Assembly (NCBI GenBank): GCA_016212085.1
Contig: JACRHL010000003.1
Location: 248,001 to 312,000, forward strand
DNA: 64,000 nt
Reading direction: 5' to 3'
Source of the DNA: Nitrospirota bacterium
Lineage (GTDB): Bacteria > Nitrospirota > JACRHL01
Shown here: positions 8,613-38,102 of the stretch, piece after piece
Numbering within the stretch: position 1 is the first letter of the stretch
Layout of the letters: each line of letters starts with the position of its first letter
Program-made: the position numbers and the translations under genes
Notes under the pieces: model-generated
What the model was told of the DNA's origin: nothing
Databases searched by the model: none
What the model saw: only the letters and a program-made list of their open reading frames with translations

Positions 8613-11024
8613 TCAGGCCTTGCGGATGGTCAGCCGGTGGTGGGCGCCGCCGTCGAGCGGATCGATGGACACCACCTGGTGCCCGTCGTTGGCCACGCTC
8701 TTGGGGACGTTGTGGATGGGCGCGCCATCGTCCAGCAGCACCTCGAGCACGCTGCCGGTGGCCATCATTTCCAGCTTCAGCTTGGTCTTGACGTAGTTCA
8801 TGGGGCAGGCCACGCCCTTCAGGTCGAGCACCGCGTCCGGGCCCTTGCCGGGCGCGGCCTGGGCCGGGGCGGCCTGGGCAGGGGCCGCGTCGGGGGCACC
8901 CACCGGCTTGGTGAGGCGCAGGTCGTTGCCCATGCTGTGGTAGCCCTCCTCGCACAGCAGCACGAAGCCCTCCGCCTCCACCAGGTGCTTGCGCACCGCC
9001 GCCTCGGGGCTGTCCAGGTGACGGCCCAGGGAGAAGAAGAGGGTGGCGCAGGTGGGCGGGAACAGGCCGGTGGCGATGAACCTCTCGGTGAACTTGGCGG
9101 CCGCCTCCGGCACCAGCTCCACCTCCTCACCCTCGGTGACCAGCAGCGCCTGGGCGGCGGAGAACACGGCGGCGTCCGCCTGCTCCGCCGCCTGCCGCCA
9201 GTTGCCCGCGTTGCGGGCCGACTGGGCCACGGCGATGCCCTGGCGCGCCTCCTTGAGGCCCACCTCGATCAGGTCGAGCACGCCGCCGGCGCACTCGCCC
9301 GGCCCCATGTCCTCCAGGGCGAACTCCACCTCCTCGCCCAGGTCGCGGTAGAACGACGGGTCCTCCTCGTAGGACGGTATCTGGGTGAGCGGGTCCAGCA
9401 GCGCCTTCAGGGCATCCTTGCCCACCCGCTCCACGAAGCCGTCGAAGCTCTCCCCATGCACGCGGTTGGCGCGGTAGTGATCGAGCAGGGCGTCCACCAC
9501 CTTGGGGCCGTTCTGGGCGGGAACGCGCAGGGTGGGGTTGGCGATCACCGTCCCCTGCCCGTCCGCGTGGCCGCCCAGGTGCACCTCGTAGAACGGCGCC
9601 ATGTGGCCCTTGTTCTTCTTGGCGGTGCCGTGGAAGCCGATGCTGGCGATGTGGTGGTGCCCGCACGAGTTGGGGCAGCCGCTCACCTTGACGCGGGCGC
9701 CGCCGGCATCGTCGTAACGCTCCGGGTGTTGGGCGATGTGCCCCCCGATCAGGCGGCCCATGCCGCGCGACTGGGTGAGGGCCAGGTTGCAGCTCTCGGC
9801 GCCGGGGCAGCTCATCACGTCGGCCAGGCGCTGGGCGGAGCCCGCCCCCAGGCCGATGGCGCCCAGCTCGCCGTACAGGGCCGCAAGCTCCGCCTGGCGC
9901 ACGGAGATGAAGACGATGTTCTGCTGCACGGTGAGGCGCATCTCGCCCGCCTGGGAATAGGCGCGGGTGAGGCGCGCCAGATGGCGCAACTGATCGGTGG
10001 TGAGGTCGCCCAGGGGCAGGGTAAGCTGCACCGACGCCAGCCCCTGGCCGCGCTCGGCGGTGACGTTGGTGGCCAGCCAGCGCTGGTAGGCGCTGCCGGC
10101 GGGAACGCGCACGTCCCACATCACCACGTTGGGGTTGGGCGCCGGCGCCGGCAGGGCGGGATAGGCGGTGCCCTCGGCGATCACCTTGGCGCGCTCATCC
10201 TCGTAGCGGCGGCGGAACTCGGCGTCGCCCAGCCGCTCCACCAGGAACTTCATGCGCGCCCGGGCCCGCTGCTTGCGGTTGCCGTACAGGTCGAACAGGC
10301 GGACCAGCGCCTCGCAGGAGGGCAGCAGGTCGGCCACCGCCACGAACTCCTCGAAGCGGTGCGCGATGCGCGGCGCCGAGCCCAGGCCGCCGCCCACCAC
10401 CATGCGGAAGCCGTAGGCCCCGTTCCTCGCCGCCGGCACCAGGCCGATGTCGTGGATGGCGGTGTGGGCACAGTCGGTCTCGCAGCCGGACAGGGCGATC
10501 TTGAACTTGCGCGGCATGTTCTGGGTGAGCGGGTGGCGCAGGAAGAAGCCGTAGATCGCCTCCGCGTAGGGGCGCACGTCGAAAATCTCCTGGGTGCACA
10601 CCCCGGCGAAGTGGCAGGCGGTGACGTTGCGCACCGTGTTGCCGCAGGCCTCGCGGGTGGTGATCCCGGCGGCGGCCAGATCGCGGAAGACGCTCGGCGC
10701 GGCCTCCAGCTGCACGTAGTGGAACTGAAAATCCTGGCGGGTGGTGACGTGGGCCGGGCCCTGGCCGTACCGGTCGCCCATGTCGGCGATGGCATCGAGC
10801 TGGTCCGCGTCCACCCGGCCGAAGGGCAGCTTGAGGCGCAGCATGTGGCCCTCGCCGCCGCGCTGGCCATACAGGCCCTGGCGCAGGCGGAAACCCTGGA
10901 ACTTCTCCGCGGGGATCTCGCCGCTCTTGAAGCGCGCCACCTCGCCCTCGAAGTGGGCGATCTCCTCGGCGATCACCTCCGGGGTGCCGATGAACGGGCG
11001 CTGTGGGTCGGCAGTTCTGCTCAT
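8613..11024 (-). CDS. Siroheme nitrite/sulfite reductase fused to a C-terminal TusA-like domain
   Basis: An 803-residue fusion. Residues ~40-560 hold two ferredoxin-like/siroheme repeats of the nitrite-sulfite reductase family, which reduce sulfite to sulfide or nitrite to ammonia with six electrons. Repeat one has C137-x5-C143 and C181-x3-C185; repeat two has C406-x5-C412 and C450-x3-C454. Usually only the second set is intact, so both repeats keeping it is odd. A helical segment (about 590-710) of uncertain family follows, perhaps HEPN-like. Residues ~730-803 are a TusA-like domain with C740 in GVACPMNYVKTK, which could carry persulfide sulfur. The ATG at 11024 has GGAG 8 nt upstream. The gene is monocistronic between its promoter and a strong terminator. 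Confidence 0.88.
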   Translation of the reverse strand: MSRTADPQRPFIGTPEVIAEEIAHFEGEVARFKSGEIPAEKFQGFRLRQGLYGQRGGEGHMLRLKLPFGRVDADQLDAIADMGDRYGQGPAHVTTRQDFQFHYVQLEAAPSVFRDLAAAGITTREACGNTVRNVTACHFAGVCTQEIFDVRPYAEAIYGFFLRHPLTQNMPRKFKIALSGCETDCAHTAIHDIGLVPAARNGAYGFRMVVGGGLGSAPRIAHRFEEFVAVADLLPSCEALVRLFDLYGNRKQRARARMKFLVERLGDAEFRRRYEDERAKVIAEGTAYPALPAPAPNPNVVMWDVRVPAGSAYQRWLATNVTAERGQGLASVQLTLPLGDLTTDQLRHLARLTRAYSQAGEMRLTVQQNIVFISVRQAELAALYGELGAIGLGAGSAQRLADVMSCPGAESCNLALTQSRGMGRLIGGHIAQHPERYDDAGGARVKVSGCPNSCGHHHIASIGFHGTAKKNKGHMAPFYEVHLGGHADGQGTVIANPTLRVPAQNGPKVVDALLDHYRANRVHGESFDGFVERVGKDALKALLDPLTQIPSYEEDPSFYRDLGEEVEFALEDMGPGECAGGVLDLIEVGLKEARQGIAVAQSARNAGNWRQAAEQADAAVFSAAQALLVTEGEEVELVPEAAAKFTERFIATGLFPPTCATLFFSLGRHLDSPEAAVRKHLVEAEGFVLLCEEGYHSMGNDLRLTKPVGAPDAAPAQAAPAQAAPGKGPDAVLDLKGVACPMNYVKTKLKLEMMATGSVLEVLLDDGAPIHNVPKSVANDGHQVVSIDPLDGGAHHRLTIRKA

Positions 11025-11042: not shown

Positions 11043-11071
11043 TTTATACCGTACTAAATCGATCGGATTAA
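11043..11071 (-). promoter_or_regulatory. Promoter with overlapping operator-like palindrome upstream of the sulfite reductase gene
   Basis: Minus strand: TTAATC (11071-11066), 17 nt, TATAAA (11048-11043), with GGAG right after the expected start site. The spacer contains an imperfect palindrome TAAATCGATCGGATTA (11055-11070, 12 of 16 positions symmetric). TACC (11047-11050) and GGTA (11080-11083) flank it. The block is strikingly A+T-rich for this genome, as expected of a regulated promoter. The regulator is unknown. Confidence 0.45.
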
Positions 11072-11125
11072 TGTTAATAGGTACCAATATACAGCCAACC
11101 ACCCCGTTCGGGCAAATGCCGCTCC

Positions 11126-35646: not shown

Positions 35647-36882
35647 TCAGTACAGGTGGTATTCGCCGGTGGGGCGCAGCAGGTGATTGAGGTCGATATC
35701 CGTGCGCAACAGTTGCAGCTCGTGGCCGCGCGCGTTCACCCCCAGCTCGATCACCCGGCGGATCACGTTGGCGTGGCGCCGGTCGCCCAGGATGACGGCG
35801 CCCACCAGACGGCCGTCCTTGAACACCAGGCGCCGGTAGGCATCCGCCTGGGGCGGCGAACACACCTCCGCGTCGCCGGCGCTGTCGGCGCGGCCGATGA
35901 AGGTGAGGGGCAGATCGTACAGGGTGGCGGCCAGGAAGGAGTGGCGCATGCGGAAGCGCTCGCGGCCGCCGGCCATGTTGGCGCCCGCCACCCGCCCCTG
36001 CAACGACGCCGCCTGCCAGCCGGGGGTGTAGCGGTGGGTGCCGGCGTCGCCATCCCACACGCAGCACACGTCGCCGGCGGCGAACACGCCGGCGACGTCC
36101 GTGGCCATGCGTTCGTTGACCTTGAGCGGCTTGTCGTCCGTCATCACGCCGGCCAGCGCGGTGCGGGGCATGCCGCCCAGCCCCACCCCCACCCAGGAAC
36201 AGGCGATCCCCTTGCCGTGGGTGGTGGTGACGGCGGCCACCTTGCCCTGCCCCCCCTCGATGGCCGCGACCCCCTCGCCCATCCGGATCTCCACGCCGTC
36301 GTCCGCCACCCGGCGGTACAGCACCTGGCTGCCGCGGGCGTCCAGCCAGGGGGCGCCCACCCGGTCCTCCGGCACCAGCAGGGTGCAGGCCATGCCCATG
36401 GCACGGGCCATCCGCGCCAGGGTAAGGCCCGGCAGGCCGCCGCCCACCACCACGGCGCGGCCACCGGCGCGGCAGTAGCCCTTGAGCACGTCGGCCTCGC
36501 CCATGCGGCCGAGGGCGAGCACCCCGCCCAGGTCGGCGCCGGGGCAGGCGAGCTTGATGGGGGAGGTGCCGGTGCCGAGCAGCACCCGGTCATAGGGCAC
36601 GGTGCTGCCGTCCTCGGTGACCACCTGGCGGGCCTCCTTGTCCACCGCCACCACCCGGCCGGTGACGCGGCGCACGTTCAGCGACTCCAGGTAGCCGTCG
36701 GGGAAGCCCCACAGTTGCTCCCGCGACAACTTCCCCATGACGTACTGGGGCAGGGAGGCGCGGAAGTAGAATGGCCACGGCTCCTCGGAGAACACCGTGA
36801 TCTCACCCTCCGGGTCGCGGGAACGGATGGCGGGAATGGCCTGGGCGGCGGCGGCCCCCAGGCCCACGACACAATACCTCAC
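35647..36882 (-). CDS. FAD-dependent pyridine nucleotide-disulfide oxidoreductase family protein
   Basis: A 411-residue flavoprotein of the NADH:rubredoxin/nitrite reductase-like class. The FAD-binding VVGLGAAAAQAIPAIR replaces the common GxGxxG with GLGAAA. VVVGGGLPGLTLARMARAMG is the NAD(P)H site, and [14 protein letters not shown] binds the FAD flavin end. No redox-active CxxC is present. The GTG start overlaps the stop of the Fe-S protein gene (GTGA), so a stoichiometric complex with that protein is likely: NAD(P)H and FAD here, Fe-S chain there. Electron acceptor unknown. Confidence 0.85.
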   Translation of the reverse strand: MRYCVVGLGAAAAQAIPAIRSRDPEGEITVFSEEPWPFYFRASLPQYVMGKLSREQLWGFPDGYLESLNVRRVTGRVVAVDKEARQVVTEDGSTVPYDRVLLGTGTSPIKLACPGADLGGVLALGRMGEADVLKGYCRAGGRAVVVGGGLPGLTLARMARAMGMACTLLVPEDRVGAPWLDARGSQVLYRRVADDGVEIRMGEGVAAIEGGQGKVAAVTTTHGKGIACSWVGVGLGGMPRTALAGVMTDDKPLKVNERMATDVAGVFAAGDVCCVWDGDAGTHRYTPGWQAASLQGRVAGANMAGGRERFRMRHSFLAATLYDLPLTFIGRADSAGDAEVCSPPQADAYRRLVFKDGRLVGAVILGDRRHANVIRRVIELGVNARGHELQLLRTDIDLNHLLRPTGEYHLY

Positions 36883-38102
36883 GCGCCCTCCGCCGGTATC
36901 GGGCCCTTGCGCCCCTGGGTGATGGGCGAGGTGAAGTGCACCGGCTGCGGTTTCATGCGGCTGTCGTCCTTCACCGCATCGTGGACCAGGTCCACCAGGT
37001 CCACCACGCGCACCCCCGCCTCGTCGGCCAGGGGGGCGAACGCCTCCAGGCAGCGCACGCACTCCACCACCATGGTGCCGGCGCCGGTCTGCCTTGCCAT
37101 GGCCAGCCGTTTCTTGCGCAGGTGGACCACCTGGGCCGGGTTGACCTCGAACTGGTGATACCCGCAGCACACGCCGTTCCCGCCGCTCTGCGGCATCTCG
37201 ATGAGGTAGCCGAACTGGCGCAGGATGCGGCGCGCCTCCTCCCCCTCGTCGAGCTTGCGCGAGATGTGGCAGGCGTCGTGAAAGGTGAGCGGGTCCGCCA
37301 CCTGCTTGATGGGGAAGCGGTGCAGGTTGCGGCGGATCCAGCTGGCGGTGGTGACCGGCATGAACGCCTCGCCCTTGACCGCCACCAGCCGCTTGAGGGC
37401 CGTGTAGCACTCGGCGCCGATGGTCACCACCTCCCTGGGGGCGGCGGCCTGGATGCGGCCGAACAGGTGGTCCATCAGCTCCTCGGAGCGGGCCAGATCG
37501 CCGGACAGCAGGTGCGGCCAGCCGCAACAGGAGCGCATGCCGCCCAGCACCTCGTAGTTGCAGCCCAGGTAGTCGGCCAGGGCCAGCACCTTGGCGGCGG
37601 TGCCGGTTTCGGAAAAGATGTTGCAGCCGAAAAAGAACAGGGTGTCGGCGGCGCGCAGCGTGCGCTTGTCCACGTGCTGGGCCAGGCCCTTCAGGCGCGG
37701 CCGCGCCTGGAGGTTGAGCAGCGATTGCTCGGCGCGCCGCGCCACCCCGCCGCCGCCGCCCATGAGCCGCAACTGGTCCGCATAGGCCTTGGGGCGCGGA
37801 TACAGGTTGGACTTCTGCCACAACACCATGGCATCACGCTCCAGCCCGACGGGACAGGCCGGCACGCACCGGCCGCACTGGAAGCACTCCCACACGAAGC
37901 GCCGGATGACATCCGACGGCGGGATGATGCCCACGGTGGCGGCGTTCAGGTCGGCGATGCGCAGTTCCGGCCCGGCCACCGGGCAGGCTTGCAGGCACTC
38001 GTGGCAGCCGATGCAGGCCGCCAGGTCGGCCTCCACCTTGCGTTTCAGACCGACGCCGATGCTGTTCAACGCGCCCGGGCCCCCGTTCGTGTGTGTCGGC
38101 AT
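36879..38102 (-). CDS. HdrC/GlpC-like iron-sulfur oxidoreductase subunit
   Basis: A 407-residue cytoplasmic Fe-S protein. Two 4Fe-4S motifs are C30-x2-C33-x2-C36-x3-C40 and C73-x2-C76-x2-C79-x3-C83. Two CCG domains follow. The second is complete (C278, C312-C313, C348-x2-C351); the first has C160, C192-C193 and only C232 of the last pair. Such HdrCB-type proteins pass electrons in heterodisulfide-reductase-like and glycolate/lactate oxidase complexes. It is translationally coupled to the flavoprotein downstream, suggesting a two-subunit electron-transfer complex. The ATG at 38102 is chosen; GTG/ATG codons further up extend into non-conserved sequence. Confidence 0.88.
   Translation of the reverse strand: MPTHTNGGPGALNSIGVGLKRKVEADLAACIGCHECLQACPVAGPELRIADLNAATVGIIPPSDVIRRFVWECFQCGRCVPACPVGLERDAMVLWQKSNLYPRPKAYADQLRLMGGGGGVARRAEQSLLNLQARPRLKGLAQHVDKRTLRAADTLFFFGCNIFSETGTAAKVLALADYLGCNYEVLGGMRSCCGWPHLLSGDLARSEELMDHLFGRIQAAAPREVVTIGAECYTALKRLVAVKGEAFMPVTTASWIRRNLHRFPIKQVADPLTFHDACHISRKLDEGEEARRILRQFGYLIEMPQSGGNGVCCGYHQFEVNPAQVVHLRKKRLAMARQTGAGTMVVECVRCLEAFAPLADEAGVRVVDLVDLVHDAVKDDSRMKPQPVHFTSPITQGRKGPIPAEGA

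Follow-up and report, generated by a model that had tools for sequence, protein, structure and literature searches.

The window (the whole stretch of 64,000 nucleotides that was analysed) carries on its minus strand, at 8613-11024, the gene termed here sir-tusA. The frame proposed at this place in the first-pass annotation was confirmed: it starts with ATG, is open throughout and intact, and encodes a protein of 803 residues in which a siroheme sulfite reductase is fused to a HEPN and a TusA domain (Table 1). A promoter-like site in front of the gene and a strong terminator-like stem behind it make sir-tusA look like a single transcription unit.

Table 1. Features of the sir-tusA locus, with positions in the window
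Feature	Position	Strand	Basis
sir-tusA; product of 803 aa, siroheme sulfite reductase joined to HEPN and TusA	8613..11024	-	ORF, Pfam, model, Foldseek
Repeat 1, residues 40-290; R63, R96, R132, R172, K173, K175 and cysteine set 1	10155..10907	-	conservation, alignment
Cysteine set 1: C137, C143, C181, C185	10470..10616	-	full in 120/136 homologues
Repeat 2, residues 312-556; cysteine set 2, without the basic pocket residues	9357..10091	-	alignment
Cysteine set 2: C406, C412, C450, C454; hold the cluster coupled to siroheme	9663..9809	-	140/140 homologues
GPGECAGG motif, residues 574-581 including C578; flexible stretch between reductase and HEPN	9282..9305	-	
HEPN-fold helical domain, residues 582-696	8937..9281	-	Foldseek to PDB 2hsb
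TusA domain, residues 732-802, C740 in CP motif	8619..8831	-	Pfam, Foldseek
Operator-like site TCCGATCGATTTAGTACGGTAT	11046..11067	-	20/22 bases identical to L122:6003-6024 (-)
Sigma-70-like promoter TTGCCC, 18 nt, TATATT	11086..11115	-	consensus match only
Terminator-like stem, 12 pairs (11 GC) and T run, directly past the stop codon	8550..8581	-	

Two NIR_SIR_ferr/NIR_SIR repeats were detected in the protein with Pfam (E 4.5e-36 and 4.6e-60). The AlphaFold2 model, made with 54 homologues, has a mean pLDDT of 89.5, and its reductase core was assigned by Foldseek to the NirA/SiR fold (1zj8 and 2gep, TM about 0.80 on target). The C-terminal TusA-like domain claimed earlier was recovered by Pfam at residues 732-802 (E 3.6e-18, 65.6 bits against a cut-off of 28.6), with C740 as numbered before; this tail resembles E. 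coli TusA (3lvj_C, TM 0.88 on target), and its score with the NCBIfam TusA model was under the cut-off. Residues 582-696 of the model match the five-helix HEPN fold (PDB 2hsb, TM 0.75 on target), and this modelled domain between reductase and TusA is absent from the earlier description. The Pfam HEPN entry matches 21 of 54 family members and stays below threshold in the window protein itself, where the domain is visible through its fold and its relatives only. The segment leading into it is modelled with a pLDDT of about 59 (residues 571-580), and C578 is kept in 138/138 homologues.

The family search covered 99 relatives, GTDB contigs and 247 genomes of the phylum to which the Acidobacteria record L115 belongs; 136 members had readable sites. 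The family is spread over Nitrospirota, Nitrospinota, Poribacteria, Acidobacteriota and others, and occurs in three architectures: Sir (about 580-620 aa, e.g. Thermus composti), Sir-HEPN (Acidobacteriota and others) and Sir-HEPN-TusA (Nitrospira and other Nitrospirota, Nitrospina, Poribacteria, Persephonella and some Omnitrophota). At L096:7974-10390 a Sir-HEPN frame is followed by a separate TusA frame, which is either a natural split or an assembly frameshift.

The anion-binding residues of E. coli CysI are R83, R153, K215 and K217. Alignment gave R63, R132, K173 and K175 of the window protein as their equivalents, and these residues of repeat 1, together with R96 and R172, are invariant (136-137 homologues). 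With two repeats, the SiR/NiR fold, these repeat-1 residues and CX5C-Xn-CX3C in repeat 2, the protein belongs to the assimilatory siroheme sulfite/nitrite reductase superfamily. Its scores with the NCBIfam models of named groups are low: 134 bits for Sir (TIGR02042, cut-off 731.5), 117 bits for CysI (TIGR02041, cut-off 756.6) and 249 bits for NirA (NF007126, cut-off 523). By these scores it is a relative, not a member, of the Sir, CysI and NirA equivalog groups. The sir-tusA protein is a newly recognised variant form of assimilatory sulfite reductase.

The genome (2.7 Mb, 99 % complete) contains a cluster of ThiF, NIL, ThiS, ThrC, ThiF and ThiS-CysK fusion genes, in which the ThiF proteins are of 266-270 aa and without a rhodanese domain, and it encodes two JAB-family proteins. 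The ThiS-cysteine synthase fusion, at L123:10768-11898 (-), also occurs in the three further genomes from that family. All components of the type 4e neighbourhood described by Iyer (Sir, TusA/SirA, ThiS, JAB and a rhodanese-free E1) are in the genome, away from sir, so that they do not form one neighbourhood; most of them cluster with Sir-TusA in the Omnitrophota locus L103, where ThiS-CysK fusion, ThrC, ThiS, ThiF and NIL genes directly flank it. For such operons SirA (TusA) was predicted in 2006 to be the sulfur donor to ThiS (PMC1779556).

A search for the same fusion and its neighbours, as proposed in the first-pass annotation, revealed recurrent Sir-TusA fusions in sulfate-assimilation and ThiS/ThiF contexts. 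One Nitrospirota genome that also carries DsrAB has a half-Sir (AsrC-like, with a ferredoxin insert) fused to TusA (L140:3336-4490) and followed by a cysteine synthase gene (L140:4606-5547); at L141:3616-4861 a half-Sir gene and a separate TusA gene adjoin and overlap, which is the unfused form of the same arrangement. Linkage to TusA by fusion or adjacency is therefore found in two different siroheme reductase types of Nitrospirota. These linkages, the ThiS/ThiF cassettes of the genome and of L103, the known fusions of such reductases to ThiS (Sir, in actinobacteria; PMC1779556) or rhodanese (NirA, in Halobacteria; PMC11237513) and the prediction of Iyer make direct sulfur hand-over the favoured inference. 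The fused carrier suggests that sulfur is passed by contact and not released as free sulfide, and the invariant C578 in the flexible segment is a candidate relay. The earlier proposal of a hand-over of the product to C740 may thus be right, given the recurrent fusions and neighbours and the thiocarboxylate carriers of the genome; the second reduction centre coupled to it is not supported, as set out below.

Alternatively, the enzyme could simply release free sulfide, and the TusA domain could serve an unrelated transfer (tRNA thiolation, molybdenum cofactor) or regulation only. Sir and Sir-HEPN relatives without TusA occur in ordinary sulfate-assimilation contexts, which means that the reaction can do without TusA; the genome has four other TusA genes, and TusA domains act in many pathways. 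Nevertheless, release of free sulfide appears rather unlikely, because TusA joined or adjacent to siroheme reductases arose in two reductase types of the phylum, such TusA-reductases adjoin CysK or sit in ThiS/ThiF cassettes, and the rhodanese and ThiS fusions are known elsewhere.

Both cysteine sets reported in the first-pass annotation are present at the residues given there (C137/C143/C181/C185 and C406/C412/C450/C454). Each cysteine of set 2 is invariant in the enlarged family (140/140), and set 1 is full in 120 of the 136 proteins and lost in part or whole in the other 16; the sets are therefore not due to chance. The accompanying rule that assimilatory enzymes normally have the second set alone is valid for E. 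coli CysI (0/4 set-1 cysteines in the alignment), tobacco NiR and M. tuberculosis NirA, but fails for the NirA of the window genome itself, in which 3/4 set-1 cysteines are retained. The second pair of set 1 is spaced CX3C in 77 proteins, CX4C in 35 and CX2C in 8. CX2C was seen in Nitrospina-type members (loci L071-L082), and CX4C in Poribacteria and many Acidobacteriota.

In the family tree the losses of set 1 are scattered and the four-cysteine state is found in the deepest branches; with long outgroup branches and truncated contigs, gains and losses can be counted only roughly. The four-cysteine state is probably ancestral in this family, tentatively so in view of the long outgroup. Among the rows of the tree set, which contain few independent pairs, set 1 is kept in 35/36 TusA-fused and 13/26 unfused ones, and this cross-table (35/1 versus 13/13) is suggestive of TusA fusion and set 1 evolving together.

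Set 1 probably holds an extra [4Fe-4S] cluster without siroheme and is not a second active site. Should it instead carry no Fe-S cluster and be a zinc site, redox-active thiols or a folding vestige, the enzyme would otherwise work as in the preferred explanation; the repeated partial losses with nothing else altered and the variable spacing of the second pair would fit. This appears improbable, as all four cysteines are kept together in 120 proteins of several phyla and in nearly all TusA-fused rows, and the same positions are cluster ligands in half-Sir and DsrA relatives.

According to the first-pass annotation, sulfite could be reduced at two centres in one chain. Such a protein would be a fused DsrAB-like enzyme with two siroheme-[4Fe-4S] centres, one or both of them catalytic, and the completeness and conservation of both sets would agree with this, as would DsrAB itself, which has two centres, one inactive (PMC10229431). 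In sulfite reductases siroheme and anion are held by basic residues of one half, and the cluster cysteines come from the other half (PMC10229431). Since the basic residues of repeat 1 serve the centre with the set-2 cluster, a second centre on set 1 needs basic residues from repeat 2. In the alignments, the pocket residues were invariant in repeat 1 and their equivalents in repeat 2 were not. Among the 120 four-cysteine proteins, the share with a basic residue at the repeat-2 equivalent is 0 % for R63, 8 % for R132, 2 % for K173 and 42 % for K175, much like the 0, 6, 19 and 50 % in the members that lost set 1. DsrB, which faces a second tetrapyrrole in DsrAB, keeps 4/7 of the compared basic positions, against 1/7 in repeat 2 of the window protein. 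Moreover, the spacing in set 1 varies from CX2C to CX4C, and in one family alignment the cysteine columns alone separate keepers of set 1 from losers. A second siroheme is unlikely because repeat 2 does not have the basic residues for it, and two centres per chain are distinctly improbable. The simplest reading is that set 1 binds a [4Fe-4S] cluster alone.

Sat and AprAB are encoded in the genome behind an Rrf2 regulator gene; CysH is absent from the genome and no DsrAB was found in it. A 22-bp operator-like site, 44 bp in front of sir-tusA, is common to the promoter of Rrf2-aprA-aprB-sat. At up to 3 mismatches the 22-mer has a single match in the window, where 0 are expected, and no chance match is expected in the aprAB-sat locus sequence either. 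A candidate target of the Rrf2 protein is TCCGATCGAWTTAGTACGGWAT, which stands in front of both sir and the aprAB operon. In most Nitrospira-type loci the best match of the site profile lies 21-61 bp upstream of Rrf2, and these matches include loci left out of profile building. The shared site places the solitary sir-tusA gene in a sulfate-assimilation regulon and argues against an oxidative reading. The Rrf2 protein (L122:6035-6466) has no cysteine in the examined part of its translation and is probably not an Fe-S type regulator. Homologues of sir-tusA lie in comparable operons, in the order Rrf2, sir-tusA, cysH, TrpD-like gene, cysD, cysN in Nitrospira and Rrf2, aprA, aprB, sir-tusA, sat in L067. 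Among the relatives searched, the 24 genomes with DsrA over the cut-off do not overlap with those containing Sir-TusA.

Gene groups that point to sulfane-sulfur handling lie apart from sir. At L121:5290-7784 an ArsR-like regulator gene and two genes for TusA accompany those of DsrE/DsrF/DsrH-like proteins, and at L125:5824-7712 TusA stands with a small protein and a type III SQR-like one. In the window, at 35647-38102 (-), an FAD-dependent oxidoreductase adjoins a CCG-domain (HdrB-like) Fe-S protein. The siroheme-synthase model TIGR01470 has no match in the genome, despite its two siroheme enzymes, Sir and NirA.

Operation in the oxidative direction, which had also been suggested, would turn TusA-bound sulfane sulfur into sulfite and then, through AprAB and Sat, into sulfate. 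The TusA-SQR and DsrE-TusA gene groups and the presence of AprAB and Sat without CysH are in line with it. It is nevertheless very improbable: the operator-like site is shared with the Rrf2-headed operon, homologues accompany cysH and cysDN, AprA is above the NF005331 cut-off and below that of TIGR02061, no DsrAB or sHdr/Dsr-type HdrB was found in the genome (the HdrB-type matches sit in Sdh- and GlcF-like contexts), and the active site has the assimilatory-type R132 where DsrA has Thr (PMC10229431).

With regard to the substrate, the Tyr-Cys crosslink of M. tuberculosis NirA joins residues that align with Y52 and C127 of the window protein; they are taken as residues 69 and 161 of NirA, which fits one offset of 11. 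Y52 is found in 134/134 and C127 in 135/137 family members, and the NirA of the window genome has neither equivalent. M. tuberculosis NirA is a sulfite reductase with a covalent Cys-Tyr bond (Schnell 2005, cited in PMC8092218). C127 had been considered as a sulfur relay and was dropped, as it aligns with this crosslink cysteine. The separate NirA gene lies behind nitrate-reductase genes in a nitrate operon, which leaves sir-tusA as the sulfite reductase of the genome. A nitrite reductase, as the best PDB sequence and fold matches (nitrite reductases and NirA) might imply, is hardly credible in view of this occupied nitrate operon, the sulfate-assimilation neighbours of the homologues, the regulon site and the Tyr-Cys pair.

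Taken together, sir-tusA would encode an assimilatory siroheme sulfite reductase with one active centre and an extra cluster, and thiocarboxylate carriers would receive its sulfur by way of TusA and feed it into cysteine; a probability of about 0.6 is given to this reading. It draws on sequence, conservation, fold, the regulon site and gene content, from which the direction, the electron donor, the cluster content and the order of sulfur transfer are deduced. Sulfate would be activated by Sat and the activated sulfate reduced to sulfite by AprAB. The six-electron reduction of sulfite would take place at one siroheme-[4Fe-4S] centre, composed of repeat-1 basic residues and repeat-2 cysteines, with ferredoxin as the probable physiological electron donor, and set 1 would most likely bind the additional [4Fe-4S] cluster without siroheme. 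C740 of TusA would take up the product, probably as a persulfide and perhaps via C578. From C740 sulfur would pass to ThiS-type carriers activated by the ThiF enzymes without rhodanese domain, and these carriers would supply the synthesis of cysteine (ThiS-CysK fusion) and possibly that of homocysteine. The position of sir-tusA in the window genome, not adjacent to the ThiS/ThiF genes, speaks against this reading, as do the many pathways served by TusA domains, the TusA-less members in sulfate-assimilating contexts and the missing match to TIGR01470.

A bolder version is speculative and, taken as a whole, unlikely. In it the enzyme contains one siroheme besides two [4Fe-4S] clusters and releases no free sulfide, sulfur moves from the siroheme to a C578 persulfide, C740 and ThiS, the extra cluster is tied to this mode, and Nitrospira, Nitrospina and relatives assimilate sulfate without free H2S. 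Sulfur assimilation in Nitrospira, other Nitrospirota and marine Nitrospinota seems to depend on Sir-HEPN-TusA. This form lies outside the named sulfite-reductase models, and no description of the three-domain architecture was found in the literature searched on sulfite reductases with HEPN or TusA domains. A hand-over of sulfur on the protein, if it takes place, would make this a channelled form of sulfate assimilation. As the family runs from complete to lost set 1, the step between one and two centres in sulfite-reductase evolution could be tested with living enzymes.

Among known systems, M. tuberculosis NirA (PDB 1zj8) shares with the window protein the two-repeat fold, a single siroheme-[4Fe-4S] site from repeat-2 cysteines and the active-site Tyr and Cys. 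The two are about 27 % identical across the structurally matched part, and NirA has no set 1, HEPN or TusA. E. coli CysI and plant ferredoxin sulfite reductase have the same fold, the equivalents of R83/R153/K215/K217 and CX5C-Xn-CX3C in repeat 2, but CysI is without set-1 cysteines, C578 motif, HEPN or TusA. DsrAB has, like the window protein, two complete cysteine sets per catalytic unit. The window protein differs from DsrAB in being one chain with assimilatory-type Arg132 and no inserted ferredoxin (no ferredoxin match), its repeat 2 is without the basic pocket residues kept by DsrB, and its scores of 59.8 and 72.8 bits are far from the DsrA and DsrB cut-offs (392.9 and 341.5).

The type 4e operons of Iyer (Sir, SirA/TusA, ThiS, JAB, E1; PMC1779556) resemble the window genome in the link of Sir to TusA and in the presence of ThiS and rhodanese-free ThiF. 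The window genome differs from them in that TusA is fused to Sir and the ThiS/ThiF genes are elsewhere. The HcyS/HcyF pathway of W. succinogenes is comparable to such sulfate assimilation with Sir, TusA, ThiS and ThiF. In the Sir-ThiS and NirA-rhodanese fusions the carrier is another one, and neither HEPN nor a second cysteine set is reported (PMC1779556, PMC11237513); they share with the window protein the joining of a sulfur carrier or a sulfurtransferase to a siroheme reductase.
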